Positions 6,122 to 23,536 of a stretch of DNA of 64,000 bases are shown here, in pieces. This DNA comes from Zobellia nedashkovskayae. Lineage in GTDB: Bacteria > Bacteroidota > Bacteroidia > Flavobacteriales > Flavobacteriaceae. The stretch spans positions 868,001-932,000 of the forward strand of contig NZ_JADDXR010000002.1 of NCBI RefSeq assembly GCF_015330125.1. The letters run 5' to 3'. Numbering within the stretch: the stretch's first letter is position 1; the number at the start of each line of letters is the position of its first letter. The notes beneath the pieces are model-generated. The model was not told the origin of the DNA and did not search any database. It was given only the letters and a program-made list of their open reading frames with translations. A program made the translations under genes and the position numbers.

Positions 6122-8005
6122 ATGCGAATAACTATAGCCTTCTGGTCCGTTCTTATACTGGCTTTAATATCTTTAAATAGTAACGCCCAACAGAATAGTG
6201 GCGAGCAAGTGCTTTTTACTACTTCTATTTCAGATGATGCTACTCCCGCAGTTTTAGCACGCATAATGATTGCCGATAAAGAACCTATTTCCGAAATAAA
6301 ATTCGAAAAAGGCACCTATCACTTTTATCCGGATAAGGCTTACGAACGTTTTACCCGTATTTCTAACCATGATGATGTTATGGCCAAAACGGCCATGCCT
6401 CTTTTAGGTTTTGATAATCTTACTATTGATGGCCAAGGCTCTACGTTTATTTATCACGGCAGAATGATTCCTTTTCTCATTGAGAGCTCCAAAAATATTA
6501 CCGTACAAAATGTTACCATAGATTGGGCCATGCCTTTTCATAGTGAAGGAACCATTGTAGCCAATGACGAGAAGAACAACTCATTCGATATTCAATTTTC
6601 CGATGAATATCCGTACGAAATTAGGAATGAACAGTTAATTTTTATCAAAGAATTTTATGAGCATGATTTAGGGCAATCTATTCTTTACGACCCTGAACGA
6701 AAAGCAATTGCTTTTAATACGGAAGCTTATACATCCATAACAACTATTAGAAACTCAAAAGTACAGCATAACGTAGACAAAATAAATTACAAGTATAAAA
6801 CTGACCCACGCTCTAAAGTAGAAAAAGTTCGTGGGAAAGAAGATAATTTACGGGTAGAAGAATTAAAGCCTGGCACGGTCCGCATTTTCAATCACAGGAA
6901 AAAATTACCACCTGTAGGCATGATTTTAGTTTGTAAAGGAGACCAAAGTTTAAATCGGTTGGCTCCAGCATTTCGTGTTACAGGAACGGATGGTTTTAAC
7001 GCCAACAATATAACGGTACACCATGCTGGTGGCATGGGCTTGATAGCCGAAAATTCTTCCGACCTTATTTTGGATGGTTTTCATGTAAAACCTTCTCATG
7101 GAAGAATGGTTTCGACCTCTGCAGATGCAACACATTTTGTAGGCTGTCGTGGCAAAGTAGTACTAAAAAACTGTACGTTCAACAATCAATTGGATGATGC
7201 CACCAACGTTCATGGCACATACCAAGAGGTAATCGATATTTTAGGCGATAATAGCATTGGTGTGCGTATGGGTCATGCACAGCAACAAGGTTTTGCCATA
7301 GGAAAGGTGAACGACACTATTGGGTTGGTAGACCTTCAGAAATCATTTTTTGGTTACAATCATCTTACTTTAAAAAGTATTACCCCTATCAATGGGAGGT
7401 ATCAGATTATTACGTTCAATGAAAACCTACCTTCAACTTTAAAAGTTGGTGACCTTATTGAAAACTTAGAAGGCTATCCTGATCTATTGGTTCAAAACTG
7501 TACTATAAGTCGGAATAGGGCTCGTGGTTTATTGATATCCAATCCTAAAAAAACCTTGATTGAAAATAATTTCTTCAGTACAGAAATGGAAGCTATCTTA
7601 GTACCTGTAGAGAGTAGCCATTGGTTTGAATCAGGCAATGCTGCCAATCTTACTATTAGAAACAACACGTTTCAGGACAGTCAACACAGCGGATTTAATA
7701 GAGGTGTAATTCGTTTTGTTACCGATGATGACAACAACAACATCGCCTTTAAAAACATTCAGATAACTGATAACAAATTCAATCAATTTGACAACATGAT
7801 ATTGGAAATCTCAAATGTTGATGGATTGTTATTTGAAGGGAACAAAATTACCAATTCCGGTACCTTCCCAATGTTACATCCCACTAATCCTGCTATTCGT
7901 GTAAAGGCCTCAAAAAATATAGTTTTCAAGAAAAATGAATACAAGGGAAAGGCAAAGAACATACTAGAGACTGATGATTCTATGCCCAAACTAAAATTTC
8001 GATAA
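6122..8005 (+). CDS. GH110-like alpha-1,3-galactosidase, second paralogue
   Basis: A 627-aa secreted beta-helix protein with a signal peptide ending near LNSNAQQ. It carries the same GH110 core as its neighbour: SADATHF and QLDDATNVHGTYQEV, giving D335, D358 and D359 with the conserved 23/24-residue spacing. The two proteins are clearly homologous but strongly diverged; this one has about 20 more residues, including a basic, charged stretch near residues 215-245 (KYKTDPRSKVEKVRGK) that the first lacks. This suggests different substrates or sulfation tolerance rather than simple dosage. It starts a probable operon with the three sulfatase genes that follow at gaps of 31, 15 and 43 bases. The upstream 163 bases hold no convincing promoter. 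Confidence 0.86.
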   Translation: MRITIAFWSVLILALISLNSNAQQNSGEQVLFTTSISDDATPAVLARIMIADKEPISEIKFEKGTYHFYPDKAYERFTRISNHDDVMAKTAMPLLGFDNLTIDGQGSTFIYHGRMIPFLIESSKNITVQNVTIDWAMPFHSEGTIVANDEKNNSFDIQFSDEYPYEIRNEQLIFIKEFYEHDLGQSILYDPERKAIAFNTEAYTSITTIRNSKVQHNVDKINYKYKTDPRSKVEKVRGKEDNLRVEELKPGTVRIFNHRKKLPPVGMILVCKGDQSLNRLAPAFRVTGTDGFNANNITVHHAGGMGLIAENSSDLILDGFHVKPSHGRMVSTSADATHFVGCRGKVVLKNCTFNNQLDDATNVHGTYQEVIDILGDNSIGVRMGHAQQQGFAIGKVNDTIGLVDLQKSFFGYNHLTLKSITPINGRYQIITFNENLPSTLKVGDLIENLEGYPDLLVQNCTISRNRARGLLISNPKKTLIENNFFSTEMEAILVPVESSHWFESGNAANLTIRNNTFQDSQHSGFNRGVIRFVTDDDNNNIAFKNIQITDNKFNQFDNMILEISNVDGLLFEGNKITNSGTFPMLHPTNPAIRVKASKNIVFKKNEYKGKAKNILETDDSMPKLKFR

Positions 8006-8036
8006 CACAATGTTTCAGTAAACAGAAATAAATACT

Positions 8037-10154
8037 ATGTCGCATTTAAAAACTTCATTACATTTTTTAACCATCATCTTATTTAGCACCGTGTTTTGTT
8101 CCTTCGCTCAACAAGAACCAAAACCAACTAAAACTGAAGAGGCCACAAAGAAACCTAACATCATCTATATTCTTACAGATGATTTGGGGTATGGAGACAT
8201 TGGTGCATTTTTTCAAAACCAAAGAAAAGAAACAGATGACCGTAGCGAGCCTTATGCATTAACCCCACATTTGGACAAAATGGCTTCGGAAGGTGCTATG
8301 CTTACCAATCATTATACGGCGGCGCCTGTATGTGCACCATCACGCTCATCGGTACTATTAGGTGTTAGCCAAGGGCATGCTAATGTTCGCGATGGTCAGT
8401 TTGACAAAGCTTTAGCAGATAATAATACGCTTGGTAACATAATGCAACGCGCAGGTTATACAACGGCCGCAATCGGAAAATGGGGTCTTCAAGGCTCTAG
8501 TAAATGGTCAGAAAACGGCGATTCATGGCCGGCACACCCCAACAATAGAGGTTTTGATTACTACTATGGCTATATGCGTCATAGGGATGGTCATGAACAT
8601 TATCCCGTTGAAGGTGTGTACCGCGGTAAAAAAGAAGTTTACGAGAATAAAAATGAAGTAAGTAAAGGGCTGGACAAATGCTATACAGGCGATTTATGGA
8701 CAGCCGTTGCTAAAAAATGGATTGTAGAACAGGTGCAGAAAAAAGAAAAGCAAGAACCTTTCTTTATGTACTTAGCTTTTGATACTCCCCATGCTGTTCT
8801 AGAACTCGCAACGCAAGCCTACCCCGAAGGAGGAGGTTTAAATGGCGGATTGCAATGGGTTGGAAAACCAGGAAATATGATTAATACAGCTTCAGGTGAA
8901 GTGGATTCATACATTCACCCTGATTACGCTAATGTTACTTATGACCATGATAAAGACCCAAGTACTCCAGAGGAGGCATGGCCAGATGTATACCAACGTT
9001 ATGCAAGTAGCACAAGACGAATTGACAATGAAGTGGGCGATTTACTTCAATTACTGAAAGACCTTAATATAGACGAAAATACATTGGTTATTTTTAATTC
9101 GGACAACGGCCCTTCTATGGAGTCTTATCTGGAGGAAGAATATGCAGCCGACTTTTTTAATAGTTTCGGACCTTTTGACGGCATCAAAAGAGATGTTCTT
9201 GAAGGTGGTGAACGCACCCCTTTAATTGCGCGCTGGCCTAACAATATCCCAGCTAACCTAGTTATAGAATCACCAAGTATTTCTTACGACTGGCTTCCCA
9301 CTTTTACTGAAGCTGCAGGTTATCCGGCTCCAGCAAATAGCGATGGGGTTTCTCTTCTACCAAGCCTAACCGGCAAAGGTAAACAACAGGAAAGCCTTAT
9401 TTACGTAGAGTACAACCAAGGTGGAAAAACTCCTAAATACGAAGAATTTTCACCAAACAACCGTGGTAGACTACGCAAGCAGATGCAAATGATGCGCGAA
9501 GGTGATATTGTTGGGTTGCGTTACAATATTCAAGGAGCAGATGACGACTTTGAATTCTACAATGTTGTGGAAGACACACACCAAACCTTAAACTTGGCAA
9601 CCTTAACAAATATGGAAGCCCTTCAACTACAAATGAAGGAACGTGTTCTTCAAGTACGCATGCCAGATACGAACGCTGCCAGACCATATGACAATGCCGC
9701 AGTTTCGGCAGTTTCAGTACATAATCTAAATAGTGGCTTGAAATGGAGCGCCTTTAAAAACACTGCGCCTTGGTTGCCGAAAGTTGATGATTTAGCTCCT
9801 ATAGAAAGTGGTAAATCCGGAACAGCAACATTGAAAGAAATTGAAAATAAAGGAGATATTTTTCTATTTGAAGGCTTTATTAAAGTCCCTACAGCAGGTA
9901 GTTACACCTTTTCCTTAAGCGCTTCTAGCAATACCTTTGTCCGCATTCATGAAGCAAGTGTTATTGATGCTGATTATGGTTATGAAGCTGGCTCTGTAAG
10001 AGAAGGCACCATGAAGCTAAAAGCAGGTTATCATCCTATTCGGATTTATTCTAAAAAGAAAACAGGAGTACAAAACACTCTAGATTTAAAGTGGAGCGGC
10101 CCATCCATTAAGAAAGGCAACATTCCTGAATCTGTATTTTACTCTAAAAATTAA
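8037..10154 (+). CDS. S1 sulfatase with C-terminal PA14-like domain
   Basis: A 705-aa secreted protein whose signal peptide ends near FCSFAQQ. The sulfatase domain spans about residues 40-530: metal-binding YILTDDLGYGD, nucleophile motif VCAPSRSSVLLG with Cys99 as formylglycine, and FNSDNGP near residue 355. The usual active-site GKWHLG appears as GKWGLQG, a variant I associate with some S1 subfamilies. From about residue 562 there is an extra domain (FEGFIKVPTAGSYTF, LKAGYHPIRIYS, LDLKWSGPS) that reads as PA14/GLEYA-type beta-sandwich, probably carbohydrate-binding. The protein is therefore longer than the 450-550 residues of ordinary S1 enzymes. The next sulfatase follows after 15 bases. 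Confidence 0.9.
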   Translation: MSHLKTSLHFLTIILFSTVFCSFAQQEPKPTKTEEATKKPNIIYILTDDLGYGDIGAFFQNQRKETDDRSEPYALTPHLDKMASEGAMLTNHYTAAPVCAPSRSSVLLGVSQGHANVRDGQFDKALADNNTLGNIMQRAGYTTAAIGKWGLQGSSKWSENGDSWPAHPNNRGFDYYYGYMRHRDGHEHYPVEGVYRGKKEVYENKNEVSKGLDKCYTGDLWTAVAKKWIVEQVQKKEKQEPFFMYLAFDTPHAVLELATQAYPEGGGLNGGLQWVGKPGNMINTASGEVDSYIHPDYANVTYDHDKDPSTPEEAWPDVYQRYASSTRRIDNEVGDLLQLLKDLNIDENTLVIFNSDNGPSMESYLEEEYAADFFNSFGPFDGIKRDVLEGGERTPLIARWPNNIPANLVIESPSISYDWLPTFTEAAGYPAPANSDGVSLLPSLTGKGKQQESLIYVEYNQGGKTPKYEEFSPNNRGRLRKQMQMMREGDIVGLRYNIQGADDDFEFYNVVEDTHQTLNLATLTNMEALQLQMKERVLQVRMPDTNAARPYDNAAVSAVSVHNLNSGLKWSAFKNTAPWLPKVDDLAPIESGKSGTATLKEIENKGDIFLFEGFIKVPTAGSYTFSLSASSNTFVRIHEASVIDADYGYEAGSVREGTMKLKAGYHPIRIYSKKKTGVQNTLDLKWSGPSIKKGNIPESVFYSKN

Positions 10155-10169
10155 AAGGACCATAGCAAC

Positions 10170-11510
10170 ATGAAAAATATCTTTCTTTTAGCAGCCCTAT
10201 TTATCGGTATATTTAAAGGCATAGCTCAAGAACAACCTAACATTGTACTGCTATTTGTAGATGATTATGGCTGGGCCGATGTTGGCTTTAGAAATTCTAA
10301 ATTCCACACACCCAATATTGACCAACTTAAAAAAGACGGCTTCAATTTCAACCGTGCCTATATTGCTACCCCTACTTGCAGTCCAAGTAGAGCATCGCTT
10401 TTAACAGGCAAAGAACCGGTACGTTTTCAAATGCCTCGTCATATTATCGATAATAAAGAGAAAGCAGCTAAAAATAATGTAGCCGGAGGAGAATTCAATT
10501 TATGGCCTATGGATCCCGTTCAGATGCCATCTAGAAATTGGTTGCCTCTAGGAGAGGTTACCTATGCCGAGCGACTCAAAGAATTTGGCTATTACAATAT
10601 GTTCATTGGTAAATGGCACTTAGGCAGCGAAAAATACCATCCGGTACATCAAGGTTTTGATGCCCAATACGGCACAGGAGACCATGGCCACCCCGGAAAC
10701 TACTATGCGCCGTTCTTTAAAACAGGTAATCCGTTACCGGATTCACCAGAAGGCACCTATTTAACCGATGTTTTAACCGATGGAGCTGAGAAGTTCATTG
10801 GCGATTATGACAAAGAACAGCCCTTTATGTTATCGCTTTGGTACTATAACGTACACGGGCCACATATTGGTCGAAACGATTGGGTAGAGCGTTATAAAAA
10901 GGAAGGTTTATCTGGTAAAGATGCGGAATACGCAGCTATGGTCAGCGCTATGGATGAATCCGTAGGGAAGGTTAGAAAGGCACTAGATGAAAAAGGCATA
11001 GCGGAGAACACGGTAGTTATTCTTCTGTCCGACCAAGGAGGTTATTTTAGCAACGCTCCTCTATCCGGAGGAAAAACAGGCGGTAACACTTTAGGTGAAG
11101 GTGGAGCTAGAGTTCCGTTTATCATTAGTTATCCTGGGGTTACTATGCCTGGGATTTCATGTGATGTTCCTGTGCAATCTATAGATGTTTTTCCAACTTT
11201 GGTTGAGATAGCTTCAGGTAAAAAACCAAAGATAAAAGATATTCAAGGCAAGAGTTTGATGCATCTCCTACAAGGCAAGAAATTAAAAGAACGTAATCTA
11301 TTTTTCTTCCGCAGTTATGAAGACCAATATACCGCCATTATGAACGGTGATTGGAAGATGGTTAAATACCACAGCGGCAGACATGACCTATTTAATATAA
11401 AAAACGATAAGAGCGAATCTAAAAACCTCATCGATATAGAAGTTGACCAAGCAAAGAAAATGAAGAAACAGCTTGTGAAATGGGAAAAAGAAGCTGTTCC
11501 TGAGTTTTAG
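10170..11510 (+). CDS. S1 sulfatase, secreted
   Basis: A compact 446-aa sulfatase with signal peptide ending near FKGIAQEQ. Canonical features are all present: LLFVDDYGWADVG (metal ligands), TCSPSRASLLTG with Cys70 as formylglycine, IGKWHLG near residue 150, and LLSDQGGY near residue 290, where the usual DN pair is DQ. DQ is also found in other S1 members (family knowledge), so activity is still expected. It contains only the catalytic domain, with no added binding module. It lies 15 bases after the PA14-sulfatase and 43 bases before the next one, so it belongs to the same transcription unit. Which sulfate of the glycan it removes cannot be read from sequence. Confidence 0.92.
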   Translation: MKNIFLLAALFIGIFKGIAQEQPNIVLLFVDDYGWADVGFRNSKFHTPNIDQLKKDGFNFNRAYIATPTCSPSRASLLTGKEPVRFQMPRHIIDNKEKAAKNNVAGGEFNLWPMDPVQMPSRNWLPLGEVTYAERLKEFGYYNMFIGKWHLGSEKYHPVHQGFDAQYGTGDHGHPGNYYAPFFKTGNPLPDSPEGTYLTDVLTDGAEKFIGDYDKEQPFMLSLWYYNVHGPHIGRNDWVERYKKEGLSGKDAEYAAMVSAMDESVGKVRKALDEKGIAENTVVILLSDQGGYFSNAPLSGGKTGGNTLGEGGARVPFIISYPGVTMPGISCDVPVQSIDVFPTLVEIASGKKPKIKDIQGKSLMHLLQGKKLKERNLFFFRSYEDQYTAIMNGDWKMVKYHSGRHDLFNIKNDKSESKNLIDIEVDQAKKMKKQLVKWEKEAVPEF

Positions 11511-11553
11511 ATAAGCTATAAAACGAGACACGTAGAAAATTAAAAACAAACGA

Positions 11554-13026
11554 ATGAAACAAATAATAACGACTGGTCTTTATTTATTATTTACCTGTTT
11601 GACTTTTGCCCAAGAACAACCAAATATTATCTGGCTCATGGCCGAAGATATGAGTGTTGACCTTGAGTGCTACGGCATGAAGGGTGTCAAAACTCCCAAC
11701 CTGAACAAGATGGCAGAAGAAGGCGTTAAATTCGAAAACTGCTTTGTAACCAACCCTATTTGCTCACCTAGCCGTTCTGCTATGTTAACAGGAACACATC
11801 AGGTTAAAATAAACGCACATCATCATCGTAGCAATAGAGATGTGCCGTTGGACGAACAATTCAAACCATTTACTTATTGGTTAAGAGAAGCTGGTTACAC
11901 TACTATTTTAGGCCATCACGGTGTTATGGGACAAGGTCGGAAAATAGATGCCAACTTTAAACACGAACCTATAGGTCCTTGGGATGGAAAGACCCAATTT
12001 GGAATTTTTGACAAGTACGATACGTTTGAGAAAGAAGACCAACCATTCTTTGCGCAGATTCAATTAGTAGCTAGTCACAGAGGTGATTGGTGGGACGAGG
12101 TTCGCGAAAACTCAAAACACCCTGTAGACCCTGCAGATGTGGAATTGCCTGAATTTATGGCTGATGACCCAGTAATTCGTTTGGATTGGGCTAAATATCT
12201 AGACCAGATAGAGTTTTTAGACAATGAAGTAGGTATGATTTTTCAAGAATTGGAAGACAAGGGAATGGCCGATAATACCGTTGTTATTTTCATTGGTGAC
12301 AATGGCCGTTGCAATATTCGCGGAAAAGGATATTTACAAGATCCGGGATTGCACATTCCGCTACTTGTGTATTATCCTAAAGATTTAAAAGCAGGTCAAG
12401 TTAGAAAAGATGTGGTTTCCGCAACGGATATTACGGCAACCGTATTGGATTTTGCCCAAGTAGACGTTCCTGAATACATGACCGGAAAACCTATATTCGA
12501 TTCTAATTTTAAACGTGAGTTTGTCTACGGAGCACGTGACCTTTGGGACGAGATAGAAGAAAAATCCCGTGCCATTACCTCGGGAGAATGGAAATATATT
12601 AGAAATGACAAACCCGAAGTTCCTTTTGACGCAGGACAAGCGTATTTGGAATTTTATCGTCCTGCAGTGCACAGAATGCGCGCCCTAAAGGCCGAAGGCA
12701 AACTTAACGAAAGTCAGAAACTGTTCTTCGCACCCAATAAAGACAAAGAAGAATTATATAATCTTAAAAATGACCCACAAGAACTGCACAATTTAGCAGA
12801 AAATCCAAAGTACATAGATGTACTTGAGAAGATGCGAGCTACGACCTTAGTCTATGATAAAGAAATGAAACCCGTAAACACCATATACCATCCTGAGCAT
12901 GCTATTTCTGTAGATGCCCTAAAATGGGTAAAAGAAGAAAGACCAGAAGAATACCGGAGGATGGTAGACGGTGAAGAAATAGGCTTTAAAAAGGCCGTTC
13001 AAGGGTATAAGGAAAGCCTTAAATAA
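11554..13026 (+). CDS. S1 sulfatase, secreted (heparan N-sulfatase-like architecture)
   Basis: A 490-aa sulfatase with signal peptide ending near LTFAQEQ. Motifs: WLMAEDMSVDLECYG (metal ligands; ED replaces the usual DD), PICSPSRSAMLTG with Cys70 as formylglycine, and FIGDNGR near residue 250. The segment aligned with GKWHLG reads LGHHGVMG, so the usual Lys is not evident at this site. The C-terminal part (ELYNLKNDPQELHNLAENP) is typical of S1 enzymes resembling SGSH. It is the last gene before a rho-independent terminator at about 13059-13095 and so probably closes the operon started by the second GH110 gene. Substrate position is unknown. Confidence 0.9.
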   Translation: MKQIITTGLYLLFTCLTFAQEQPNIIWLMAEDMSVDLECYGMKGVKTPNLNKMAEEGVKFENCFVTNPICSPSRSAMLTGTHQVKINAHHHRSNRDVPLDEQFKPFTYWLREAGYTTILGHHGVMGQGRKIDANFKHEPIGPWDGKTQFGIFDKYDTFEKEDQPFFAQIQLVASHRGDWWDEVRENSKHPVDPADVELPEFMADDPVIRLDWAKYLDQIEFLDNEVGMIFQELEDKGMADNTVVIFIGDNGRCNIRGKGYLQDPGLHIPLLVYYPKDLKAGQVRKDVVSATDITATVLDFAQVDVPEYMTGKPIFDSNFKREFVYGARDLWDEIEEKSRAITSGEWKYIRNDKPEVPFDAGQAYLEFYRPAVHRMRALKAEGKLNESQKLFFAPNKDKEELYNLKNDPQELHNLAENPKYIDVLEKMRATTLVYDKEMKPVNTIYHPEHAISVDALKWVKEERPEEYRRMVDGEEIGFKKAVQGYKESLK

Positions 13027-13058
13027 GGATTTAAACGTTGTTTGTTAGTTAGTGTAGT

Positions 13059-13095
13059 AAAAGTCCCCATTGCATATGCTTTTGGGGATTTTTTT
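13059..13095 (+). terminator. Rho-independent terminator after the GH110-sulfatase operon
   Basis: The arms AAGTCCCCA and TGGGGATTT form a stem with an approximately 12-base loop, followed by a run of T. It lies 33 bases after the stop of the sulfatase ending at 13026, so it marks the end of that transcription unit and implies a separate promoter for the sulfatase-SMP30 gene. Confidence 0.75.
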
Positions 13096-13154
13096 AGGCC
13101 CAAATATTCGCTACCTCTTTCTAGGTTTACTTTAAAGCAATTAGGTATTGAAAG

Positions 13155-13370
13155 CTATGATATTTCAGTTAAGGTAACTCTCTCCGTAACCCCTGTTATA
13201 TTAAAATCACCCTTTACCGCCGTAATCGTATAATCGACACAACTAGAATTGTTTATACTCTATAAGACTACCGAAATGACTCCCAGAGACTCCTTACCCT
13301 CAGAAAACACCTTACCAGTAATAGCCTCCGAAGATTGTGCTTGTATGGATGCAAAAGAACAGATGTACAT
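13155..13370 (-). pseudogene. Possible decayed reading frame of a secreted protein
   Basis: On the minus strand a frame opens with ATG at 13370 and reads CSFASIQAQSSEAITGKVFS and onward, then hits an in-frame TAG at 13260-13262. The same frame continues without further stops to 13155, reading CVDYTITAVKGDFNITGV and beyond. The beginning resembles the end of a signal peptide followed by the first strand of a carboxypeptidase-regulatory-like domain. A neighbouring frame just upstream encodes a hydrophobic stretch (ILVLLCTSVLL), as if a frameshift split the signal peptide. This is a weak, by-eye reading; it could be chance. Confidence 0.25.
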
Positions 13371-13596
13371 AAGAGTACAAGAATTGTATTGTGGAATACA
13401 TAATCTACAAATGATATGATCAATTTGCTATAAGTATGCAACAGATGATCAAAGGCCTAAACTATAAAAGGTAAAATTATTACATTGCCTAGTGCCTAAC
13501 TCTGTAAAGTAATAAACCTGCAACACCGATTATTTTAACACCCGTAAGTTCTCAGAATTAATCATATCGATTTTAAAAAACACAACCGCCCACCTT

Positions 13597-15870
13597 ATGA
13601 AACCAATCCACTTTTTATTTTTCTTTTTAGTCTCATTTTATAGTCATTCGCAACAAACCAAAGAAGTTTTGGACGAAAAACGCCCCAACATCATTCTTAT
13701 TATGGTTGATGACCTGGGATATGAAGGAATTGGTAGTTACGGCGGAACCTCATACAACACACCAAATATTGATAAACTTGCGGCCACGGGCATGCAATTC
13801 AACCAAGCATACGCCCAACCCCTCTGTACGCCTACTCGAGTAAAACTTATGACTGGGCAGTACAATTTTAGGAATTGGGAAGCCTTTGGAATTTTGAATC
13901 CAAAACAAAAAACTTTTGGCCACATCATGCAAGATGCCGGTTATGCCACGTGCATGGTGGGTAAATGGCAATTGCAAAGTTATGACCCGCCTGGTTATCC
14001 TGGAGGTGAGCACAGAAGGGGAATTGGCATGAAAGTAGAAGATGCTGGTTTTGATGAATACAGTATGTTTCACGCCTTCCACACAGAAGATAAAGGCTCC
14101 CGTTTCGCCAATCCAACCATTTATCAAAATGGAGAATTCCTAAAGGAAACAGATGGTAAATATGGCCCGGACATTTTCTCTCGATACTTAAACGATTTTG
14201 TTGACCGTCAAGCGGGTAAACCGTTTTTCGTGTATTACCCAATGGCATTGACCCATGGTCCTTTCAATCCAACACCGAACAGCGGCGATTGGAAATATGC
14301 TATAAAAAGATTGAATGACGAAACTATATACTTCAAGGATATGGTGGAGTATCTAGATAAAATTATTGGAGATATTGTAGATAATCTTGAAAAGAAAGGA
14401 CTTCGAGAAGACACCCTTTTAATGTTGTATTCCGATAATGGAACACACCAAACCATTTTTTCCAAGATGGGAAATCGAACGGTTCAAGGTGGTAAAGGCC
14501 TAACAACCGAAGCTGGTATTAAAGTCCCTTTTATTGCCAACTGGCCAGGTCATATTAAAGAAGGTACTGCATCAAACGAATTCATTGATGCTATAGATTT
14601 TATGCCCACTATTCTTGAAGCTACAAATACCCCTACTCCTTCCGGTTTTAAACCAGATGGAGAAAGTTTTCTACCTGTTTTAAAAGAAGAACCTGTACAA
14701 CGTAGAGACTGGGTATTTATGAGTTACGACCCTAAACCGGGTTGGGACAAAAAACAATTCGCACCGGCAGAATTTGTATTAAACGAAAACTATAAACTTT
14801 ACGGAGACGGTAGATTCTATAACATCAAAAAAGATGTTCTGGAAAACGATTCGTTGCCATCTAACAAACTATCTTCTAAAGAAAAACAGCTAAAAAAAAA
14901 ATTTAAAACGGTTTTAGATTCGTTAAGAAAATATCCAACGTATGGCTGGATTGAACGTCTAGCGTCTGAGTTTGATTCGTTGGTATCAAAACATGCCCGT
15001 ATAGAATTAGTTGCAGAAGGCTTCAATTGGTCAGAAGGTCCGGTATGGCTTCCTAAAGAGCAAAAACTTATTTTCTCCGATGTTCCCGAGAACAAAATTT
15101 ACCAGTGGCACAATTTAGATGGACTAAGTTTATACATGGCTCCTTCCGGTGATACAGGTATTGAAAAAGTAAGTAACGGCAAAGGTTCCAACGGACTTAT
15201 TCTTAACCCAGAAGGGGAATTAGTACTGTGCCAAGTAGGCGACCGTAGAATTAGTAAACTCACAAGCTTGACGGATTCTCTTCACCCTAAATTTGAACCG
15301 GTAATTACCAATTTTAAGGGTAAAAAATTCAACTCGCCTAACGATATGGATTATGACCAAGATGGAAATCTATATTTTACCGACCCTTCTTTTGGTTTAG
15401 GTGATGGCAAAAGTGACATTGGTTTCAACGGAGTCTATTTTTGTGGAAAAAACAAAGAATTAGTTCTTTTGGATGACGCTATAAAAGCTCCTAACGGTAT
15501 TGCCGTATCCAACGACAATAAGACTTTATATGTTGCTGATTCTTTTAAGGAACAACCTAAAATCTTAGCATACGACATTGTTGGGAATGGAAAGGTATCC
15601 AACAAAAGAATATTTTTTGATGCTACTAAATTACGTGAAGCAAGTATTAGCAAACAATCTCCGGACGGAATGAAGATTGATGACAAGGGTAATATTTTCT
15701 TAGCGGGGCCTGATGGTGTTTTGGTTATTTCTCCCAAAGGCAAGCATTTAGGAACTATCAGAACCGATAAAAACACGGGCAATTGCGAATTTAGCGATGA
15801 TGGAAGATATTTATTTATAACCGCAGATGATTACCTTCTAAGAGTAAACCTAAGACCCTATTCTAAATAA
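13597..15870 (+). CDS. Bifunctional-looking fusion: S1 sulfatase plus SMP-30/gluconolactonase-like beta-propeller
   Basis: A 757-aa secreted protein (signal peptide ends near FYSHSQQ) with two domains. Residues about 27-440 are an S1 sulfatase: IMVDDLGYEGIG, LCTPTRVKLMTG with Cys77 as formylglycine, VGKWQLQ in place of GKWHLG, and YSDNGTH near residue 287. Residues about 468-755 are SMP-30/gluconolactonase/LRE-like, with the metal-ligand regions in order: FNWSEGPVW, FNSPNDMDYDQDGNLYFTDP, APNGIAVSNDNKTLYVADS and SPDGMKIDDKGNIFLAGPDG. SMP-30 enzymes hydrolyse sugar lactones in a divalent-metal-dependent way. One continuous frame joins the two domains, with no stop. The next sulfatase gene follows after 7 bases. 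A role in handling a lactone or oxidised sugar end is inference. Confidence 0.9.
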   Translation: MKPIHFLFFFLVSFYSHSQQTKEVLDEKRPNIILIMVDDLGYEGIGSYGGTSYNTPNIDKLAATGMQFNQAYAQPLCTPTRVKLMTGQYNFRNWEAFGILNPKQKTFGHIMQDAGYATCMVGKWQLQSYDPPGYPGGEHRRGIGMKVEDAGFDEYSMFHAFHTEDKGSRFANPTIYQNGEFLKETDGKYGPDIFSRYLNDFVDRQAGKPFFVYYPMALTHGPFNPTPNSGDWKYAIKRLNDETIYFKDMVEYLDKIIGDIVDNLEKKGLREDTLLMLYSDNGTHQTIFSKMGNRTVQGGKGLTTEAGIKVPFIANWPGHIKEGTASNEFIDAIDFMPTILEATNTPTPSGFKPDGESFLPVLKEEPVQRRDWVFMSYDPKPGWDKKQFAPAEFVLNENYKLYGDGRFYNIKKDVLENDSLPSNKLSSKEKQLKKKFKTVLDSLRKYPTYGWIERLASEFDSLVSKHARIELVAEGFNWSEGPVWLPKEQKLIFSDVPENKIYQWHNLDGLSLYMAPSGDTGIEKVSNGKGSNGLILNPEGELVLCQVGDRRISKLTSLTDSLHPKFEPVITNFKGKKFNSPNDMDYDQDGNLYFTDPSFGLGDGKSDIGFNGVYFCGKNKELVLLDDAIKAPNGIAVSNDNKTLYVADSFKEQPKILAYDIVGNGKVSNKRIFFDATKLREASISKQSPDGMKIDDKGNIFLAGPDGVLVISPKGKHLGTIRTDKNTGNCEFSDDGRYLFITADDYLLRVNLRPYSK

Positions 15871-15877
15871 GACCACC

Positions 15878-17383
15878 ATGTACAAAAACTACACTTTATC
15901 TATTCTTTCACTAGGTCTTTTACTTATCTCATCTTGTGCAGAGAAGAAAAAAGAGGAAGCCAAAGTCACAGAAGAACGCCCCAATATAGTTCTCATAATT
16001 GCCGATGATATGGCCTGGGACGATAGCGGTGCTTATGGGCACCCAAACATAAAAACTCCCAATATAGACCAACTGGCCCAGGACGGTATGCGTTTTGACA
16101 ATGCTTTCTTGACCGCCAGTTCGTGTAGCCCGAGCAGAACCAGTATTATAACTGGCCTTTACCCACACAATACAGATGCGGAGCAACTACACTGGCCTTT
16201 ACCCGCAAGCAAGGTTACTTTTGTTGAGGAATTAAAAAAGTCTGGATACTGGACGGCTCAGGCAGGAAAATGGCACTTAGGAGACTCCATAAAAACACGT
16301 TTTGATTTGGTAAAAGATGTGGGTACACACGGTTTTCAGTTATCGCCAACCGGAGAAAAAACCAAACAAATGGGCGATGGTAGTGGTTGCGAAGAATGGA
16401 TACCCGTTCTTAAACAAAGACCAAAAAATCAACCTTTCTTCTTATGGTTAGCTGCCGTAGACCCTCACAGACCCTATACCGAAGATACTATAGAGAATCC
16501 CCATGCTTTGGAAGATGTAGTACTGCCCCCCTATTTTCCTGATACCAAAGAGGTACGTGAAGATTTTACGCATTATTATAATGAGATTACCCGTCTTGAT
16601 AATTATGTTGGCGAAGTAGTTGCGGAGTTGGACAGACAAGGAATTTCAGATAATACAATGATTCTATTCATAAGTGATAATGGCAGACCTTTTCCTCGCG
16701 ACAAGACTACACTTTACGACGGTGGCATAAAAACCCCATGGATTGTGAAATGGCCAAATGAAGTAGAATCTAATTCGGTTAATACCAACTTGGTAAGCTC
16801 AATAGACATAGCTCCAACATTCCTAAAACTTGCGAATTTAGAAACATTACCAAGTTTTGAAGGCGAAGATTTCTCTCCATTACTAGAAGACACAAAAGCA
16901 AAAACCAGAGATATCATTTATGCGGAAGACCACTGGCATGATTACGAAGACTACACGCGAGCTGTACGTTCCGAAGAATTTAAATACATACGAAACTTTT
17001 ACACAGATTTACCGAATACGCCTTCTGCAGATGCGTTTATTGGCGGCACCTTTAAATCTATGCAGGCACTAAAAAAGAAAGGTGAACTAAACGAAGCGCA
17101 ATTGGCTTGCTTTATTACACCAAGACAAGAAGAGGAATTATATGATGTGGTTAACGACCCCTACGAGCTTAAAAACCTTGCACGAGACCCAGCGCATCAA
17201 ATTACATTAAAGACCTTACGTACTGAAATGAATAGTATTCGTAAAGCCTCTAAGGATAGCTTACCGGATTTTAGAACGCCAGATGAGTTTGATCGTGATA
17301 CGGGCAAATCTAATTCGTTCAGAAAAAGACCTCGCCCTTCAAAAGTTGAGATGGAGAAGATTATAAGAGCTATGAGTAAATAA
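15878..17383 (+). CDS. S1 sulfatase, predicted lipoprotein
   Basis: A 501-aa sulfatase with a lipoprotein signal (LLISSCAEKKK, Cys20), so probably lipid-anchored. Motifs: IIADDMAWDDSGAYG (metal ligands), SCSPSRTSIITG with Cys83 as formylglycine, AGKWHLG near residue 130, and FISDNGRPFPRDKTT near residue 265. The C-terminus (EELYDVVNDPYELKNLARDP) is typical of SGSH-like S1 enzymes. It lies 7 bases behind the sulfatase-SMP30 gene, so the two are likely one operon. The stop is only 15 bases from the end of the convergent regulator gene. A highly charged tail (FRKRPRPSKVEMEK) follows the catalytic domain. Confidence 0.92.
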   Translation: MYKNYTLSILSLGLLLISSCAEKKKEEAKVTEERPNIVLIIADDMAWDDSGAYGHPNIKTPNIDQLAQDGMRFDNAFLTASSCSPSRTSIITGLYPHNTDAEQLHWPLPASKVTFVEELKKSGYWTAQAGKWHLGDSIKTRFDLVKDVGTHGFQLSPTGEKTKQMGDGSGCEEWIPVLKQRPKNQPFFLWLAAVDPHRPYTEDTIENPHALEDVVLPPYFPDTKEVREDFTHYYNEITRLDNYVGEVVAELDRQGISDNTMILFISDNGRPFPRDKTTLYDGGIKTPWIVKWPNEVESNSVNTNLVSSIDIAPTFLKLANLETLPSFEGEDFSPLLEDTKAKTRDIIYAEDHWHDYEDYTRAVRSEEFKYIRNFYTDLPNTPSADAFIGGTFKSMQALKKKGELNEAQLACFITPRQEEELYDVVNDPYELKNLARDPAHQITLKTLRTEMNSIRKASKDSLPDFRTPDEFDRDTGKSNSFRKRPRPSKVEMEKIIRAMSK

Positions 17384-17398
17384 AAACCAGTTAACTCG

Positions 17399-18550
17399 TT
17401 AAAAACCGACCACCATTTCAAGTTTTAAATCGGTGTCAACCCTATTCCGACCTTTAACTTTGAATAGTGCCGTAAAGTACTTTTTACCTTTTAGATGTTC
17501 CTTTTGAAACTTTTGAAGGCTGTCATTGTTCGTGAAGTATTCAACCGTTGCGCTTACGCCTATATCGTGTTGCGAAAAGAATACAAAATGTTCTGAATTA
17601 CCAATACTAGGATACTTTGCTACAATAGCATATTCTTGGTCCACCAAAGAAGTACCAAAGGTAAATAGGCTATCCTTCATTGTTGGATGCCCAGATAGTT
17701 TTAAGGTTTTTCCCGATAGATTGAAGTATGGGTTAGCGTCATTAAAAAAGCCGATAAATTGATTTTCATTTTTTATCGGCCCAGCGTAAATGGCATTACC
17801 TTCCTTAATTTCAGGTAGCGTAGTTTGCGTAGAAAAACGAATTGAAATCGGTTTATCATTTGCTTGAAAAAACTGTTGAAACTGCTGGGTTGCCATTGCC
17901 GCCATCCGAGTGGTATAGCTATAATTTGCGGGGTGAAGCACACCTTGCAATTCGGGTTTTACCTCGAGTAAATCATAAAATTCATCAACGTTATTTATCT
18001 CAAAATCTCTAGTCCACCCCCTACCTCCGGTCATTGTTTCTCCCATGGTGCCAAAATGGTCTCCTAGAATAAGGTTGGTAGATTTTTCGGAATCCAAAAA
18101 CGACTCCCATAACAATGGTGTTTTTGATGGTATGTTGCTTACCACAAGCATTATTAGGGCAACCAGGAATAAACAATACGGAAGAATTTGTGACCAAGTT
18201 ACCTTTCGCATCCAACCTGCTGGAGCTTGTCTTTTTATAAATCGAACTTTATACTGCCCCTTATCTATTTTTAATTGCCAGCTATCTGTACTACCCTCCG
18301 TTTCGTAATATGCCGTCAGCTTTTTTCTAAGGTTGTAAACATTAACCCTTACCCTAGGATTGTTCTTCTCTTGGTTCTCATCATTTCTAAAAAATTCTAA
18401 TTCTATTACAGCCTCCTTTAAATGTTCTCCCCTCTTTGTGGCTTCATAGAGATATTGCAACAATCCTCTGCTTGTTGGCGCATTTTTAAAGGTCTCGCTA
18501 TCCTTTATCTTATAAACTACATGTTGTTCTATCTTTTCCGTCAGCTGCAT
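17399..18550 (-). CDS. Membrane-anchored winged-helix regulator with extracytoplasmic domain (poorly described family)
   Basis: A 383-aa protein in three parts. Residues about 1-105 look like a winged-helix DNA-binding domain (SRGLLQYLYEA, PRVRVNVYNLRKKLTAYYE, LKIDKGQYKVRF), a pattern I recall from the N-termini of uncharacterised acidobacterial and planctomycete regulators. One transmembrane segment follows at about 121-140 (LPYCLFLVALIMLVVSNI). Residues about 145-383 would be outside the membrane; they include TRMAAMATQQFQQFF, YAGPIKNENQFIGFF and EYAIVAKYP, again like the C-terminal part of that family. The topology resembles ToxR/CadC one-component sensors, though the sequence does not look like them. 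It lies convergent with the sulfatases and divergent from the GH2 gene, so control of this locus is likely but unproven. Confidence 0.7.
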   Translation of the reverse strand: MQLTEKIEQHVVYKIKDSETFKNAPTSRGLLQYLYEATKRGEHLKEAVIELEFFRNDENQEKNNPRVRVNVYNLRKKLTAYYETEGSTDSWQLKIDKGQYKVRFIKRQAPAGWMRKVTWSQILPYCLFLVALIMLVVSNIPSKTPLLWESFLDSEKSTNLILGDHFGTMGETMTGGRGWTRDFEINNVDEFYDLLEVKPELQGVLHPANYSYTTRMAAMATQQFQQFFQANDKPISIRFSTQTTLPEIKEGNAIYAGPIKNENQFIGFFNDANPYFNLSGKTLKLSGHPTMKDSLFTFGTSLVDQEYAIVAKYPSIGNSEHFVFFSQHDIGVSATVEYFTNNDSLQKFQKEHLKGKKYFTALFKVKGRNRVDTDLKLEMVVGF

Positions 18551-18585
18551 GGGGAATACCGTAAAATAGGCAGCTACAAGACAAG

Positions 18586-18727
18586 TTTAACCGTTATAGC
18601 TACCGTTAAAGAGAGGTTAAAGTACAAATAATAAAGTGTGAAACATACATTTGTTACAATCATTTTAATTCGCTTTTTAGAAAGGCAACACTATTACAAA
18701 AGTTTCTTTTAAGTATATAAGAAAGGC
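18586..18727. promoter_or_regulatory. Candidate operator elements between the regulator and GH2 genes
   Basis: The 205-base divergent intergenic region contains TTTAAC (18586-18591) and GTTAAA (18605-18610) as a short inverted repeat near the regulator start, then another GGTTAAAG just after it. Nearer GH2 there is a direct repeat AGAAAGGC at 18679-18686 and 18720-18727, 41 bases apart. Such short matches can arise by chance; no clear -7/-33 pair was found for either gene. Confidence 0.25.
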
Positions 18728-18755
18728 CAGACAGATTAAATTAAAAATTAAACTC

Positions 18756-21593
18756 ATGAAAACCACCACCATTTTTATACTACTATGGCTATCTTTTATT
18801 GGAGTAAATGCCATGCAGTCCAAAACAGAACCAGCGGATATTGAAACGCAAGAATTTTATCTATCAGGTACGGGCAAAGATGATATGGTAGACTGGGATT
18901 TCTTTTGTTCCGATGGAATGAACAGTGGCAAATGGACTACCATAGGTGTTCCTTCTTGTTGGGAATTGCAGGGATTTGGAAACTACAACTATGGCAAAGA
19001 TAATTTTAAGGTGCGTAAGAATGAATACGGGCTTTACAAGCATCAATTTAATGTTCCAGAAAATTGGGATGAAAAGGAAGTGAAAATTGTTTTTGAAGGC
19101 GTCATGACCGATGCCGAGGTAAAAATTAACGGCCAACTTGCTGGAGAAATACATCAGGGAGCTTTCTATGAATTCAAGTATGAAATTTCTAAACTCCTGA
19201 AATACGGCGAAAAAAACTTGCTAGAAGTCAAAGTGAACAAAGCCTCTTCCAATACCTCTATCAATCATGCTGAACGAGAAGCGGATTTTTGGATTTTCGG
19301 CGGAATTTTTAGACCCGTTTATTTACAGGCCTTCCCTAAAGAAAATATTGAGCGAGTTGCCATCAATGCCAAAGCAGATGGAAGCATAGAAGCCAATATT
19401 TACACTGCATCTACCAAAGCTAAATCTCTTCGCCTTTCGTTATCTGATATCCATAATAAAAAGATAGAAGATTTAGCCGCTATTGACATCAGTAAAGAAA
19501 ATGGCAAATGGCATGTTACCTCAAAAGCAAACGACATAAAATCATGGAATCCGGAATCACCTCAACTATACTTCTTAAACATAGAACTTCTGGGCAAAAA
19601 AGATGAAGTGCTTCATACAACTTCGCAACGTCTTGGTTTTAGGACGGTTGAAGTTCGTGAGGGAGACGGAATCTACGTAAACGGGCAACGAATAAAATTC
19701 AAAGGCGTAAATCGGCATTCCTTCTATCCATCCTCAGGCAGAACTACATCAAAAGAACTAAGCATTGAGCATGTAAAAATGATGAAAGACATGAACATGA
19801 ATGCCGTGCGTATGTCTCATTACCCACCTGACAAGCATTTTTTAAATGTTGCCGATTCACTAGGGCTTTTTGTTATAGACGAAGTCTGTACCTGGCACTC
19901 ACCGTATTTAGACACAAAAGTAGGTCGAAAAATAGTTGAAGAAACCGTGGTTCGTGACGTAAACCACCCCTCTATTCTCCTTTGGGCCAATGGAAACGAA
20001 ACAGGTTGGAATACGGAGTTAGATGGTGATTATGCCAAATGGGACATTCAACAAAGAGAAGTTATTCACCCTTGGAATATTTTTAATAAAACAAATACCA
20101 TGCACTATCCTAGCTATCATGTCTTTGCGTATGATACTTATGCCAAGGATAAAATATATTTCCCAACCGAGTTTTTACATGGTCTGTACGATGGTGGGCA
20201 TGGTGCCGGACTAGATGATTATTGGAAACAGATGTGGAATATGCCATTAGCTGCCGGAGGTTTTTTATGGGATTTTGCAGATGAAGCCGTGGTTAGAACA
20301 GATAAAAAAGGAATACTAGATACAGACGGCAATCATGCAGCCGATGGAATTGTGGGACCTTATGGAGAAAAAGAGGCTAGTTATTTTAGTATTAAGGAAA
20401 TTTGGTCTCCGGTTTACATAGAAGACCGCTATATAAAATCAGATTTTAATGGTGTTTTTAGAGTTGAAAACAGATATCATTTTACCAATTTAAATGATAT
20501 TAAAATGGCTGCCAAATGGGTACAATTTGATGGTCCAAAAGGAACAGATAAAGTTAAATTAGTCTCTGAAAGTACTGTTACATTACCAGACTTAAAACCC
20601 GAAACCAGAGGAGCGTTCAAAGTAGATTTACCTGAAAACTGGCAAACTGCAGATGCTTTATTTTTAACGGCAACAGACCACAATGGCTTAGAAATATTTA
20701 CATGGAGCTACCCTATCAAAGTGCCAAAGGACATAAATAAAAGCAATAGTATTAATACAGAACAAGGAGCGGTTACGACCCAAGTTGATGGGGGACTTAT
20801 TAAAGTTGCAGCAAACGGAATTGAGTACACCTTTTCAGAAGAAACCAGCTTGTTACAGGGGGTTAAAAAAGAAAATAACAGTGTCCCCTTTACTAATGGA
20901 CCTATGATTTTTGACCATAAAGACAAAATAGAATCTATACATGTAAACAAGCTTAAAGACAAAGTAGAGATTATTACCGTTTTTGAAAAGACGGATAAAT
21001 CCCCCGGATGGGCAAGTCATAAAGAGTACAGCTCCGATGTTATAAAATGGACCATAAACTCTAACGGCTTGTTAGACCTACACGTTGAAATTAAAGGTAA
21101 AAAGATAGTAACAGGATTAAAAGGTATTACGTTCTCGTTTCCAGAATCTGAAGTTAGTGGTATGAAGTGGTTAGGAGACGGACCTTACCGTGTATGGCGA
21201 AATAGAATGAAAGGTACCAAATTTCAAGTTTGGAAAAATGATTATAACAATACCGTTACTGGAGAATCAGGTTTCGTATACCCAGAATTTAAGGGGTATT
21301 TCTCTAATCTGTACTGGGTAAAGATTAAAGGTAAAAACAACAACGGTTTTACGGTGTATTGTAGTTCCGAAAATACCTTTTTACGGATGCTTACCCCTCA
21401 GCAACCAAAAGAAGACCCAAACCATAGGGTTTCTGTAGACTTCCCTGAAGGTGATATTTCCTTTGTTAAAAATATACCTGCAATAGGAACTAAGTTTCAA
21501 ACGGGAGATAAAATGGGGCCTCAGGGTAATTCAGAAAACTACTTTGGTAACGATGATGAACCTATAAGTATAGATTTAACTTTTGAATTTTAA
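18756..21593 (+). CDS. GH2 beta-galactosidase-like glycoside hydrolase
   Basis: A 945-aa secreted GH2 enzyme; a signal peptide covers about residues 1-20. Order of domains: N-terminal sugar-binding jelly roll (IGVPSCWELQGFGNYNYG), Ig-like domains, TIM barrel from about residue 310 (GVNRHSFYPSSGRT, NMNAVRMSHYPPD), then C-terminal beta-sandwich regions. The acid/base is E415 in WANGNETGW and the likely nucleophile is E472 in FPTEFLHG, diverged from the classical ESHG of LacZ. GH2 members release non-reducing beta-linked sugars such as galactose. It is single in its transcription unit and is followed by a strong terminator. Next to GH110 and sulfatases, a beta-galactosidase alternating with the alpha-galactosidases is the simplest reading, but other GH2 specificities cannot be excluded. 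Confidence 0.88.
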   Translation: MKTTTIFILLWLSFIGVNAMQSKTEPADIETQEFYLSGTGKDDMVDWDFFCSDGMNSGKWTTIGVPSCWELQGFGNYNYGKDNFKVRKNEYGLYKHQFNVPENWDEKEVKIVFEGVMTDAEVKINGQLAGEIHQGAFYEFKYEISKLLKYGEKNLLEVKVNKASSNTSINHAEREADFWIFGGIFRPVYLQAFPKENIERVAINAKADGSIEANIYTASTKAKSLRLSLSDIHNKKIEDLAAIDISKENGKWHVTSKANDIKSWNPESPQLYFLNIELLGKKDEVLHTTSQRLGFRTVEVREGDGIYVNGQRIKFKGVNRHSFYPSSGRTTSKELSIEHVKMMKDMNMNAVRMSHYPPDKHFLNVADSLGLFVIDEVCTWHSPYLDTKVGRKIVEETVVRDVNHPSILLWANGNETGWNTELDGDYAKWDIQQREVIHPWNIFNKTNTMHYPSYHVFAYDTYAKDKIYFPTEFLHGLYDGGHGAGLDDYWKQMWNMPLAAGGFLWDFADEAVVRTDKKGILDTDGNHAADGIVGPYGEKEASYFSIKEIWSPVYIEDRYIKSDFNGVFRVENRYHFTNLNDIKMAAKWVQFDGPKGTDKVKLVSESTVTLPDLKPETRGAFKVDLPENWQTADALFLTATDHNGLEIFTWSYPIKVPKDINKSNSINTEQGAVTTQVDGGLIKVAANGIEYTFSEETSLLQGVKKENNSVPFTNGPMIFDHKDKIESIHVNKLKDKVEIITVFEKTDKSPGWASHKEYSSDVIKWTINSNGLLDLHVEIKGKKIVTGLKGITFSFPESEVSGMKWLGDGPYRVWRNRMKGTKFQVWKNDYNNTVTGESGFVYPEFKGYFSNLYWVKIKGKNNNGFTVYCSSENTFLRMLTPQQPKEDPNHRVSVDFPEGDISFVKNIPAIGTKFQTGDKMGPQGNSENYFGNDDEPISIDLTFEF

Positions 21594-21937: not shown

Positions 21938-23536
21938 TTATTTCTTGCCGGTTTTCGCTTTTAATGCCAGATACACTCCGTTACTCCATCCAAAACCATC
22001 TTGCACCGGATATTCTCCTCCACCAGCATCTAAGCTCATATCCTCCACATTATACTTTTCAACGAATTTTCCTGTATTGGCATATACTTTTTCATTGAGT
22101 TTCACCCAACGTTGAGCAATGGTATTTGCGAGTTTGTCATGACCATAATTTTCCAAGCCAACAATGGTCATCCATTGCAATGGCGCCCAACCGTTAGGCG
22201 CATCCCATTGCTCACCTGTATTTTTTAAAGTAGTAACTACACCACCTGGTTTCAGAAAATTATTTTTTATGTATTCTGCAATGCTATCTGCCTGCTCCTG
22301 AGATGCCATATTGAAAAACAAGGGAAAGGTCATGGCCAATGAAGGCTCGCCAGTTTGTTTTTCCTTGACCCAATTAAAATCTTCATAAATACCTTCGGAT
22401 GCATTCCAACAAAAATCATTTAGAAATTTCTTTCTGTTCGCCATACTTTCCTCAAGTGTCTTTTTAAATTCTTCATCTTCGGGATAGCACTTTAACAATA
22501 CGGATTCTAAGCCGTAAAGAAGTGCATTAAGATCAACAGGGATGATATCTGTAGTAATAATGGTTTCAATTGATTTACCATCAGCAAACCACCTTGAAGA
22601 ATAGTCCCAACCGGATTCCGCTCCAGAACGCAGGTCACTATACATTTTTTCGCCTCCATTTACTTTTTGAACCTGATTATAATCTTCGCGATAGGATTCT
22701 TGACGCGGTAAAGTACCACGGTCAAAATAGCGATTCATTATACCTGAAGTTGTATTCACGCAATGATAAATAGGAGTATCGGTGGCATCCTTACCGTCCA
22801 TCCAAAAATCATACTCCTTTCTTAAAGCACTTTTATATTTGGTATAGACAGAATCACCCTTACTCGTGGCTAACAAAGCAACCATCTGCGCAAAGAAAGG
22901 AGGTTGTGACCTTGTGATATAATAGGTTCTATTACCGTTGGGGATATGACCTACAGTTTCTATTAAATGCGCAAAATTTTCAAGCATGTCATCAATAAGG
23001 TCGAATTCTCCACTTTCGGCTAAGCCTAACATCGTAAAATAACTGTCCCAATAATAAACTTCTCGGAAACGACCACCTGGAACTATATATGGATCAGGCA
23101 AGGGAATAAGTGTACTACCCTCATTTTTGGCATCTGAGACTCTCGTTAGAACCGGCCATAACGAGACAACATGTTCCGCTGCAGATTTGCTCTTGTCCGT
23201 CTTAAAGTCTGAACTTATAGTCTCCGGTAATTCAAAATTCTTGAGTACGAATGCCTTCAAATCAAAATTTGCAGAATCGCTTTCCTGCTCATATGCTATT
23301 TTAATTTCGGAGTAAGGTCTTTTGGCAATGCAATCAACGAATGTCTTGCTGTCCGGAAAAACCTGTTCTAATTGTACGTCTACGAATAGCTGACCAAGTA
23401 AAACATCAAGAGTTTGAAGTGTTTCCCCTTTTTCTAAGGTCTTGTGGGTTGTGTTTGTTATCTCAACGGCCTTTTTATCCGGTTCGGTCTTACAGGAAAT
23501 AAAGGTGAATAAGAAAAATAACAAATAGTATCGCAT
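21938..23536 (-). CDS. treA: GH37 alpha,alpha-trehalase, predicted lipoprotein
   Basis: A 532-aa GH37 protein. Both family signatures are clear: PGGRFREVYYWDSYFTMLGL and QWDAPNGWAPLQWM. The E. coli enzyme's catalytic pair corresponds to the Asp in SGAESGWDYSSRW and a Glu in the C-terminal region (DAGGGEYPVQDGFGWSNG). The N-terminus carries a lipobox (FISCKTE, Cys15), so the enzyme is probably periplasmic or at the outer membrane and splits trehalose into two glucoses. Length matches periplasmic TreA (about 560). It is a single gene, 21 bases before the end of the glutaryl-CoA dehydrogenase gene on the same strand; functional linkage of those two is unlikely. The symbol is by family similarity. 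Confidence 0.9.
   Translation of the reverse strand: MRYYLLFFLFTFISCKTEPDKKAVEITNTTHKTLEKGETLQTLDVLLGQLFVDVQLEQVFPDSKTFVDCIAKRPYSEIKIAYEQESDSANFDLKAFVLKNFELPETISSDFKTDKSKSAAEHVVSLWPVLTRVSDAKNEGSTLIPLPDPYIVPGGRFREVYYWDSYFTMLGLAESGEFDLIDDMLENFAHLIETVGHIPNGNRTYYITRSQPPFFAQMVALLATSKGDSVYTKYKSALRKEYDFWMDGKDATDTPIYHCVNTTSGIMNRYFDRGTLPRQESYREDYNQVQKVNGGEKMYSDLRSGAESGWDYSSRWFADGKSIETIITTDIIPVDLNALLYGLESVLLKCYPEDEEFKKTLEESMANRKKFLNDFCWNASEGIYEDFNWVKEKQTGEPSLAMTFPLFFNMASQEQADSIAEYIKNNFLKPGGVVTTLKNTGEQWDAPNGWAPLQWMTIVGLENYGHDKLANTIAQRWVKLNEKVYANTGKFVEKYNVEDMSLDAGGGEYPVQDGFGWSNGVYLALKAKTGKK

Follow-up and report, generated by a model that had tools for sequence, protein, structure and literature searches.

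Glycan-gene control in marine Bacteroidota rests on a small number of known regulator types. SusR, hybrid two-component systems and extracytoplasmic function (ECF) sigma/anti-sigma pairs provide glycan-responsive control of nearby catabolic genes, and in this they resemble the system described here, a predicted membrane-anchored regulator encoded in a 64,000-nucleotide stretch of Zobellia nedashkovskayae DNA (contig NZ_JADDXR010000002.1, positions 868,001 to 932,000; hereafter the window, with position 1 at its first letter). SusR carries its sensor and DNA-binding parts in the opposite order to the window regulator. Hybrid two-component systems exert glycan-responsive control in Bacteroidota (PMC3404733), but a Pfam scan of the window protein finds no kinase, receiver, AraC-type helix-turn-helix or sigma/anti-sigma domain. 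In Zobellia galactanivorans, the regulators named are of AraC (CgrA) and other families, and the carrageenan locus has CgrA (ZGAL_3159) as its AraC-family activator (PMC5698469). CgrA shares with the window regulator the genus, a connection to red-algal galactan catabolism and a positive mode of action, predicted in our case, but belongs to the AraC family by annotation, against a winged helix with a transmembrane (TM) helix here.

OmpR-type DNA-binding domains have four N-terminal strands. The nearest layouts are those of CadC and ToxR, in which a cytoplasmic winged-helix N-domain is followed by one TM helix and a periplasmic C-terminal domain. CadC activates a target promoter; its DNA-binding domain, which is similar to PhoB, has a topology that begins β1-β2-β3 (PMC5430869). 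ChiS and TfoS of Vibrio cholerae, likewise membrane-anchored, bind promoters directly and respond to the polysaccharide chitin (PMC11856585). They are alike to our regulator as membrane-anchored direct promoter regulators acting on polysaccharide, but come from another phylum and, to our knowledge, differ in domain make-up. The layout is therefore known, that of transmembrane one-component activators; what is new is an operator of its own and a sensor fold that we did not find described for them. Titles and starts of abstracts in a mostly freely accessible literature contain no account of this sort of regulator from the glycan loci of Bacteroidota or Zobellia.

The elements of the system are as follows.

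17399 to 18550, minus strand: regulator gene, 383 residues, ATG start, from open reading frame (ORF) translation and homologues
18233 to 18550, minus strand: DNA-binding domain, residues 1–106, a helical winged-helix variant in the structure model
18131 to 18187, minus strand: TM helix, residues 122–140, from hydropathy, with the N terminus predicted inside
17402 to 18118, minus strand: extracytoplasmic domain, residues 145–383, with a predicted fold like the BcsB C-terminal and GH67 N-terminal domains
18585 to 18622, minus strand: operator CTTTAACCTCTCTTTAACGGTAGCTATAACGGTTAAAC, 38 base pairs (bp), three head-to-tail repeats with TAAC cores 11 and 12 bp apart
18646 to 18653, plus strand: −7 promoter box TACATTTG (TAnnTTTG) for GH2, separated from the operator by 23 bp
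18756 to 21593, plus strand: GH2 gene (beta-galactosidase type), the predicted activation target, from ORF and domain scan

The computed elements are the predicted architecture, a single conserved operator, a divergent glycan target and a target-side −7 box at a fixed distance. We think it probable that the protein is a transmembrane one-component activator that binds this operator and recruits RNA polymerase to GH2, with a periplasmic BcsB/GH67N-like domain as its input.

Architecture and Predicted Fold of the Regulator

The ORF at 17399–18550 is a real gene, as a sequence-only reading of the window had held, and both N-terminal peptides quoted in that reading occur in its translation. It has 169 homologues at E ≤ 1e-3, with 42–98% identity among the 120 listed, 119 of which cover at least 95% of the query; the closest named ones among the matches listed are from Zobellia. 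Full-length homologues are widespread in Bacteroidota. A 97-row alignment, 96 rows of which were chosen by hand from the 120 listed homologues, contains 26 invariant columns. The gene has a single copy in the 4.94-Mb genome, and a profile search of proteins shows few further kin among the best 120 of 240 matches. PF00486 (Trans_reg_C) is the sole Pfam match of the window protein, at 12.2 bits against a cut-off of 26.2 (E 0.2), and is matched at E ≤ 1 by 23 of the 97 family members (best E 0.0011). Neither the protein nor the family profile has a PDB sequence match at E ≤ 10. Given the sub-threshold Pfam match, the absence of a PDB sequence match and the aligned homologues, we regard the proteins as a coherent family, unnamed in the libraries searched.

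Structure models were made for the full protein and for the N-domain (residues 1–113). The N-domain model comprises helices at residues 5–16, 19–22 and 25–39 and a recognition helix at about 66–83; strands start only at residue 91, with wing strands at 91–95 and 102–106. Its fold matches support the proposed winged helix at moderate scores, and Foldseek with the N-domain alone returns nothing at E ≤ 0.001. The N-domain may or may not belong to the broad OmpR/PhoB fold, in which a β wing comes after the recognition helix and tandem repeats lie about 11 bp apart; in the model, wing strands come after the recognition helix, and the DNA repeats are 11 and 12 bp apart. The domain is helical where OmpR-type domains have their N-terminal strands, and since it lacks an N-terminal β sheet and scores below the PF00486 cut-off, we do not class it as an OmpR-type winged helix. 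The earlier description of the protein as ToxR-like accordingly holds for layout and fails for family; CadC and ToxR differ further from this regulator in its BcsB/GH67N-like ectodomain and in its setting, Bacteroidota glycan loci with an operator of their own. The occurrence of similar proteins in Acidobacteria, named in the sequence-only reading, is borne out for the N-domain, whose relatives occur in 128 plasmid records, mainly from rhizobia, some annotated as adenylate cyclase and two from Granulicella.

Hydropathy gives one peak, at residues 122–140 (KD19 2.47; next-best segment 0.62), in agreement with the single helix placed earlier at about 121–140, and the model of the full protein puts the membrane helix at 119–138. 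Net charge follows the positive-inside pattern: of 69 aligned members, 54 have a higher value ahead of the helix than behind it, 8 have the same value on both sides and 7 have a lower one ahead. A single TM helix is thereby predicted, with the DNA-binding N terminus inside and the C-terminal domain outside. The 240-residue ectodomain, whose conserved residues include W148, D164, R181, D182, K249, N252, N270, H328, D329 and R370, has its top fold matches in the final domain of BcsB, a periplasmic subunit of cellulose synthase, and in the GH67 N-terminal domain. The modelled fold is like that of BcsB and of the GH67/GH84/GH115 N-terminal domain, without a sequence match to solved structures, and the ectodomain thus appears to share the BcsB/GH67N fold, with sequence homology not detectable at E ≤ 10 against PDB. 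No Pfam family of BcsB/GH67N type is among the 25 of 41 families listed for the 97 members. A sequence search of plasmids with the ectodomain alone finds Persicobacter only (2 of 72,556 records). One Persicobacter plasmid (L073, 3274–9131) carries the regulator with an operator scoring 44.8 bits; divergent from the regulator is a GH2-like gene, followed by a UxaC-like one, both enzymes being named from the start of their sequence only.

A Single Conserved Operator

The sequence-only reading had the inner domain binding the intergenic region 18551–18755. A conserved operator does lie inside this region; binding by the protein would follow from the associations described below. When the sequences that separate the divergent genes in Zobellia and Pseudozobellia are aligned, the operator is the one block that is almost unchanged, and the same block, with consensus CTTTAACnnnnCTTTAACGGTAnCTATAACGGTTAAAn, precedes the regulators of other genera and families. 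A scan of 84,980 species genomes yielded 69 regulator loci covering several families. With the window included, a position weight matrix (PWM) for the operator scores at least 12 bits at 69 of 70 regulators, over a span from 700 bp upstream to 200 bp inside the called ORF (some ORF starts being over-extended); the same sites had served to build the matrix, and the 12-bit line is our choice. The weakest operators are those of L046 (19 bits) and L063 (16 bits). The only other PWM hit in 1,463,277 bases, on both strands, is that of L039, where a PD-(D/E)XK transposase gene (3543–5875) separates regulator from operator. This insertion is a natural separation of the two and makes L039 the sole non-divergent locus; beyond it lie a divergent SDR-like gene and then UxuA-like and MFS-like genes, named by sequence look.

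The operator pattern occurs once in the window and in none of 100 shuffles, and at up to 3 mismatches it has a single site in the whole genome. Neither the pattern nor the PWM scan finds another such operator anywhere in the window. A looser 28-bp repeat pattern was discarded, with 2 matches in the window against 1.0 expected by chance. Both the N-domain helix RVRVNVYNLRKKL and the core of the operator are almost invariant. We also rejected mutual information between operator and residues, computed for 67 of 69 aligned regulators, as a signal of specificity: the top 25 pairs fall mainly in the ectodomain and linker rather than the DNA-binding domain, a concentration that indicates shared ancestry rather than specificity residues.

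Of 299 genomes of Flavobacteriaceae, 21 contain the family (E ≤ 1e-20) and 12 contain the operator pattern, which has 13 sites among them; the reversed operator has no match. At ten of the 13 sites, a close family member follows within 100 bp, and the site of G002 (L091) heads a gene run containing a more distant one. The site in G236 precedes a GH2 pair, 65–66% identical to the window GH2; the regulator is some 278 kb away and itself has neither GH2 nor operator adjoining (best score 0.8 bits). This site accompanies the target and not the regulator, so control there would be in trans. The last site, in G059, is inside coding sequence in a genome without a family member at E ≤ 1e-20 and is taken as a chance match.

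Promoter Geometry

The target side of the operator mostly carries the −7 box of Bacteroidota. A TAnnTTTG element (at least 5 of 6 bases) lies 21–25 nucleotides beyond the operator in 42 of 59 non-redundant loci, at an offset of 23 in 30 loci, 24 in 9 and 22 in 3, with an exact match in 17; the mean for shuffled sequences is 4.3 (maximum 10), or 0.29 (maximum 3) for exact boxes. The 59 were drawn from 70 sites by excluding L046 and L063 (below 25 bits) and nine near-copies (more than 80% alike). In F. psychrophilum the TAnnTTTG box spans −12 to −5 (PMC9723704). With the box at these positions, the operator would lie at about −36 to −73 and replace the −33 element, and the expected GH2 start in the window would fall near 18658, some 5 bp past TACATTTG. 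OmpR-type activators such as PhoB bind tandem repeats at such promoter positions. A target-side −7 box at a near-fixed distance is, as far as sequence can tell, the geometry of an activator.

We therefore propose that the cytoplasmic winged helix would bind the three head-to-tail TAAC half-sites at 18585–18622, which occupy the position of the −33 element of the GH2 promoter, and that the bound regulator would recruit RNA polymerase to the divergent GH2 gene, activating it while tethered to the membrane. The BcsB/GH67N-like domain would receive a periplasmic ligand as input, probably reporting a glycan-breakdown product, and the signal may alter the association of the tethered DNA-binding domains.

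A clear −7 box is missing in 17 of the 59 loci. Against the operator going with the family, 3 of 13 close members (G236, G072 and G002) have no adjoining site at up to 3 mismatches. The same operator could also serve a repressor that blocks the divergent promoter until an inducer arrives, or mainly control the regulator's own gene. It lies between both genes in nearly all loci, mostly ending about 10–130 bp short of the regulator start, as either would have it. However, its other end mostly stops 23–24 bp short of the −7 box, leaving the box and the expected start uncovered; a −7 box on the regulator side is found in 1 of 59 loci (none exact); and the G236 operator sits with GH2, away from the regulator. 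We consider repression or autoregulation unlikely.

Partner Genes and the Window Locus

The upstream gene is divergent in 68 of the 69 regulator loci and mostly serves glycan catabolism; in the control, 22 of 169 adjacent pairs are divergent. The control consists of 20 arbitrary, hand-placed stretches from related genomes, all Flavobacteriaceae, while the regulator loci span several families. With the window included, the partners are GH2 (29), BNR_4 (14), UxaC (8), GH43-like (7), SusC (4), DUF1080/3-keto-disaccharide hydrolase (3) and singles (5), those of L039 and L017 having been picked by hand in the clustering. PF04616 is matched by 4 of the 69 partners; within the GH43-like group L033 matches it, and L041 has no Pfam match at 1e-5. 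The window's GH2 arrangement recurs in L002–L006 and L064. On the regulator tree, partner type tracks clade, though swaps occur: it changes 19 times, where shuffled labels average 53. The tree omits L017, and the distant members are labelled as one group, which adds to the clustering. Alignment A3 excludes L017, L054 and L057, whose N termini are unaligned, and L010 and L028, removed by hand. The operator is retained while the partner varies.

A sulfatase, GH110-type, GH2, SusC or SusD homologue lies within 6 kb in 57 of 69 loci, against 4 of 20 controls of the same length, and the association with glycan loci on which the sequence-only reading depended is upheld. Among the 25 of 139 families listed for the 78 control ORFs are sulfatase (2), polysaccharide lyase (2), GH3 (1) and TonB plug (3).

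In the window, one further group of genes adjoins the regulator.

2641 to 17383, plus strand: six sulfatase genes and two GLAA-B genes, transcribed towards the regulator

The regulator gene is convergent with the sulfatase ending at 17383 and divergent from GH2, starting at 18756, an arrangement that the sequence-only reading had described correctly. Its 3′ side holds sulfatases at 13597–15870 and 15878–17383, with four more farther off. The ORF at 13597–15870 (757 residues) fuses a sulfatase domain to an SMP-30/gluconolactonase-type domain, a fusion kept in L076 at 89.6% identity. The GLAA-B proteins are presumably of GH110 type. On the far side, the gene for a trehalase-family protein (21938–23536) converges with GH2 and is not part of the predicted target unit. 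The set of six sulfatases, two GLAA-B proteins and one GH2 (2641–21593) resembles the exo-acting lambda-carrageenan enzymes of Pseudoalteromonas, whose pathway its two GH110-type proteins, GH2 and sulfatases recall (PMC12549532).

The sequence-only reading had gone further: the ectodomain would sense sulfate or sulfated oligosaccharide, and the protein would run the whole sulfatase/galactosidase locus. The six adjoining sulfatases and the likeness to the lambda-carrageenan pathway (PMC12549532) speak for it, as does the higher frequency of sulfatase homologues near the regulator (19 of 69 loci at 12 kb, against 2 of 20 controls). But a sulfatase homologue is present within 10 kb in just 28 of 69 loci (8 of the 69 end early on one side) and in none of the GH43-like (7), SusC (4) or other (5) loci, and the partners include glucuronate isomerase and 3-keto-disaccharide hydrolase; we reject sulfate as the family signal. 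The sole operator of window and genome (at up to 3 mismatches) stands at GH2, which makes the GH2 promoter the predicted direct target and not the whole sulfatase locus. Of the proposed role, control of the GH2 promoter is retained and that of the entire locus rejected; the sulfatase and GH110-type genes would need another controller. We judge this earlier version as a whole very unlikely. As the ligand of the proposed activator we would rather guess at a product of galactoside or uronide type, since a GH2 homologue is present in 53 of 69 loci.

Distant Clades

More distant members were found by profile, 16 of which were taken as clades 2 and 3 (24–30% identical to the window protein). Clade 2 regulators are divergent either from genes that appear GH3-like at their start or from members of a family that begins QSLGYNNNRIAISADGNNQ; Pfam gives no match for the representative of this family. 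Clade 3 regulators (L085–L090, L092 and L094) are divergent from genes like L085's, which encode PSCyt1, PSCyt2 and PSD1, then DUF1501; Pfam was run on L085 only and the others were assigned by sequence look. The combination of PSCyt1/PSCyt2/PSD1 with DUF1501 is well known in Planctomycetes. The gammaproteobacterium Catenovulum adriaticum has a relative of 22% identity whose divergent neighbour is a c-type cytochrome gene; this gene belongs to a run with DUF1080, and a beta-galactosidase adjoins.

The clade 2 and clade 3 sequences were not used for the PWM, and the half-site was loosened to AACNGT after viewing them. Pairs of AACNGT at 12-bp spacing (at least 9 of 10 bases) occur in all eight intergenic regions of each clade and are perfect in 3 of 8 in clade 2 and 8 of 8 in clade 3; dinucleotide shuffles give means of 0.13 and 0.04, respectively. 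At spacings of 8–11 and 13–16, perfect pairs are absent and no more than 3 of 8 regions reach 9 bases. Because AACNGT plus the following T almost equals its own reverse complement, both strands score and the orientation is less certain in these clades.

It is most improbable that the element serves some other DNA-binding protein, or acts as RNA, with the regulator merely adjoining it. In favour of this, the G236 operator and regulator lie far apart and the G059 genome has no member at E ≤ 1e-20. Against it, of the 13 sites ten adjoin a member, one heads a member-containing run and the other two lie one in a genome with three members and one inside coding sequence, and the operator is kept while its partner changes, with relatives as distant as clades 2 and 3 keeping the 12-bp repeat.

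Implications

As a transmembrane activator, the family would connect periplasm and promoter through one protein. Its operator and target are defined and a start site is predicted, which opens it to direct testing. The rare operator may also serve as a target finder for enzymes of unclear role, the gene after the repeat and −7 box being the predicted target. More broadly, and tentatively, with the balance tipping slightly against, these proteins may form an undescribed superfamily of membrane-tethered activators that adds a further general route of glycan control in Bacteroidota. In it, periplasmic oligosaccharides would be read directly by a BcsB/GH67N-like domain, and the winged helix would replace the −33 element at a single conserved AACNGT-repeat promoter, reused for GH2, BNR_4, UxaC, SusC, DUF1080 and planctomycete-type cytochrome operons.
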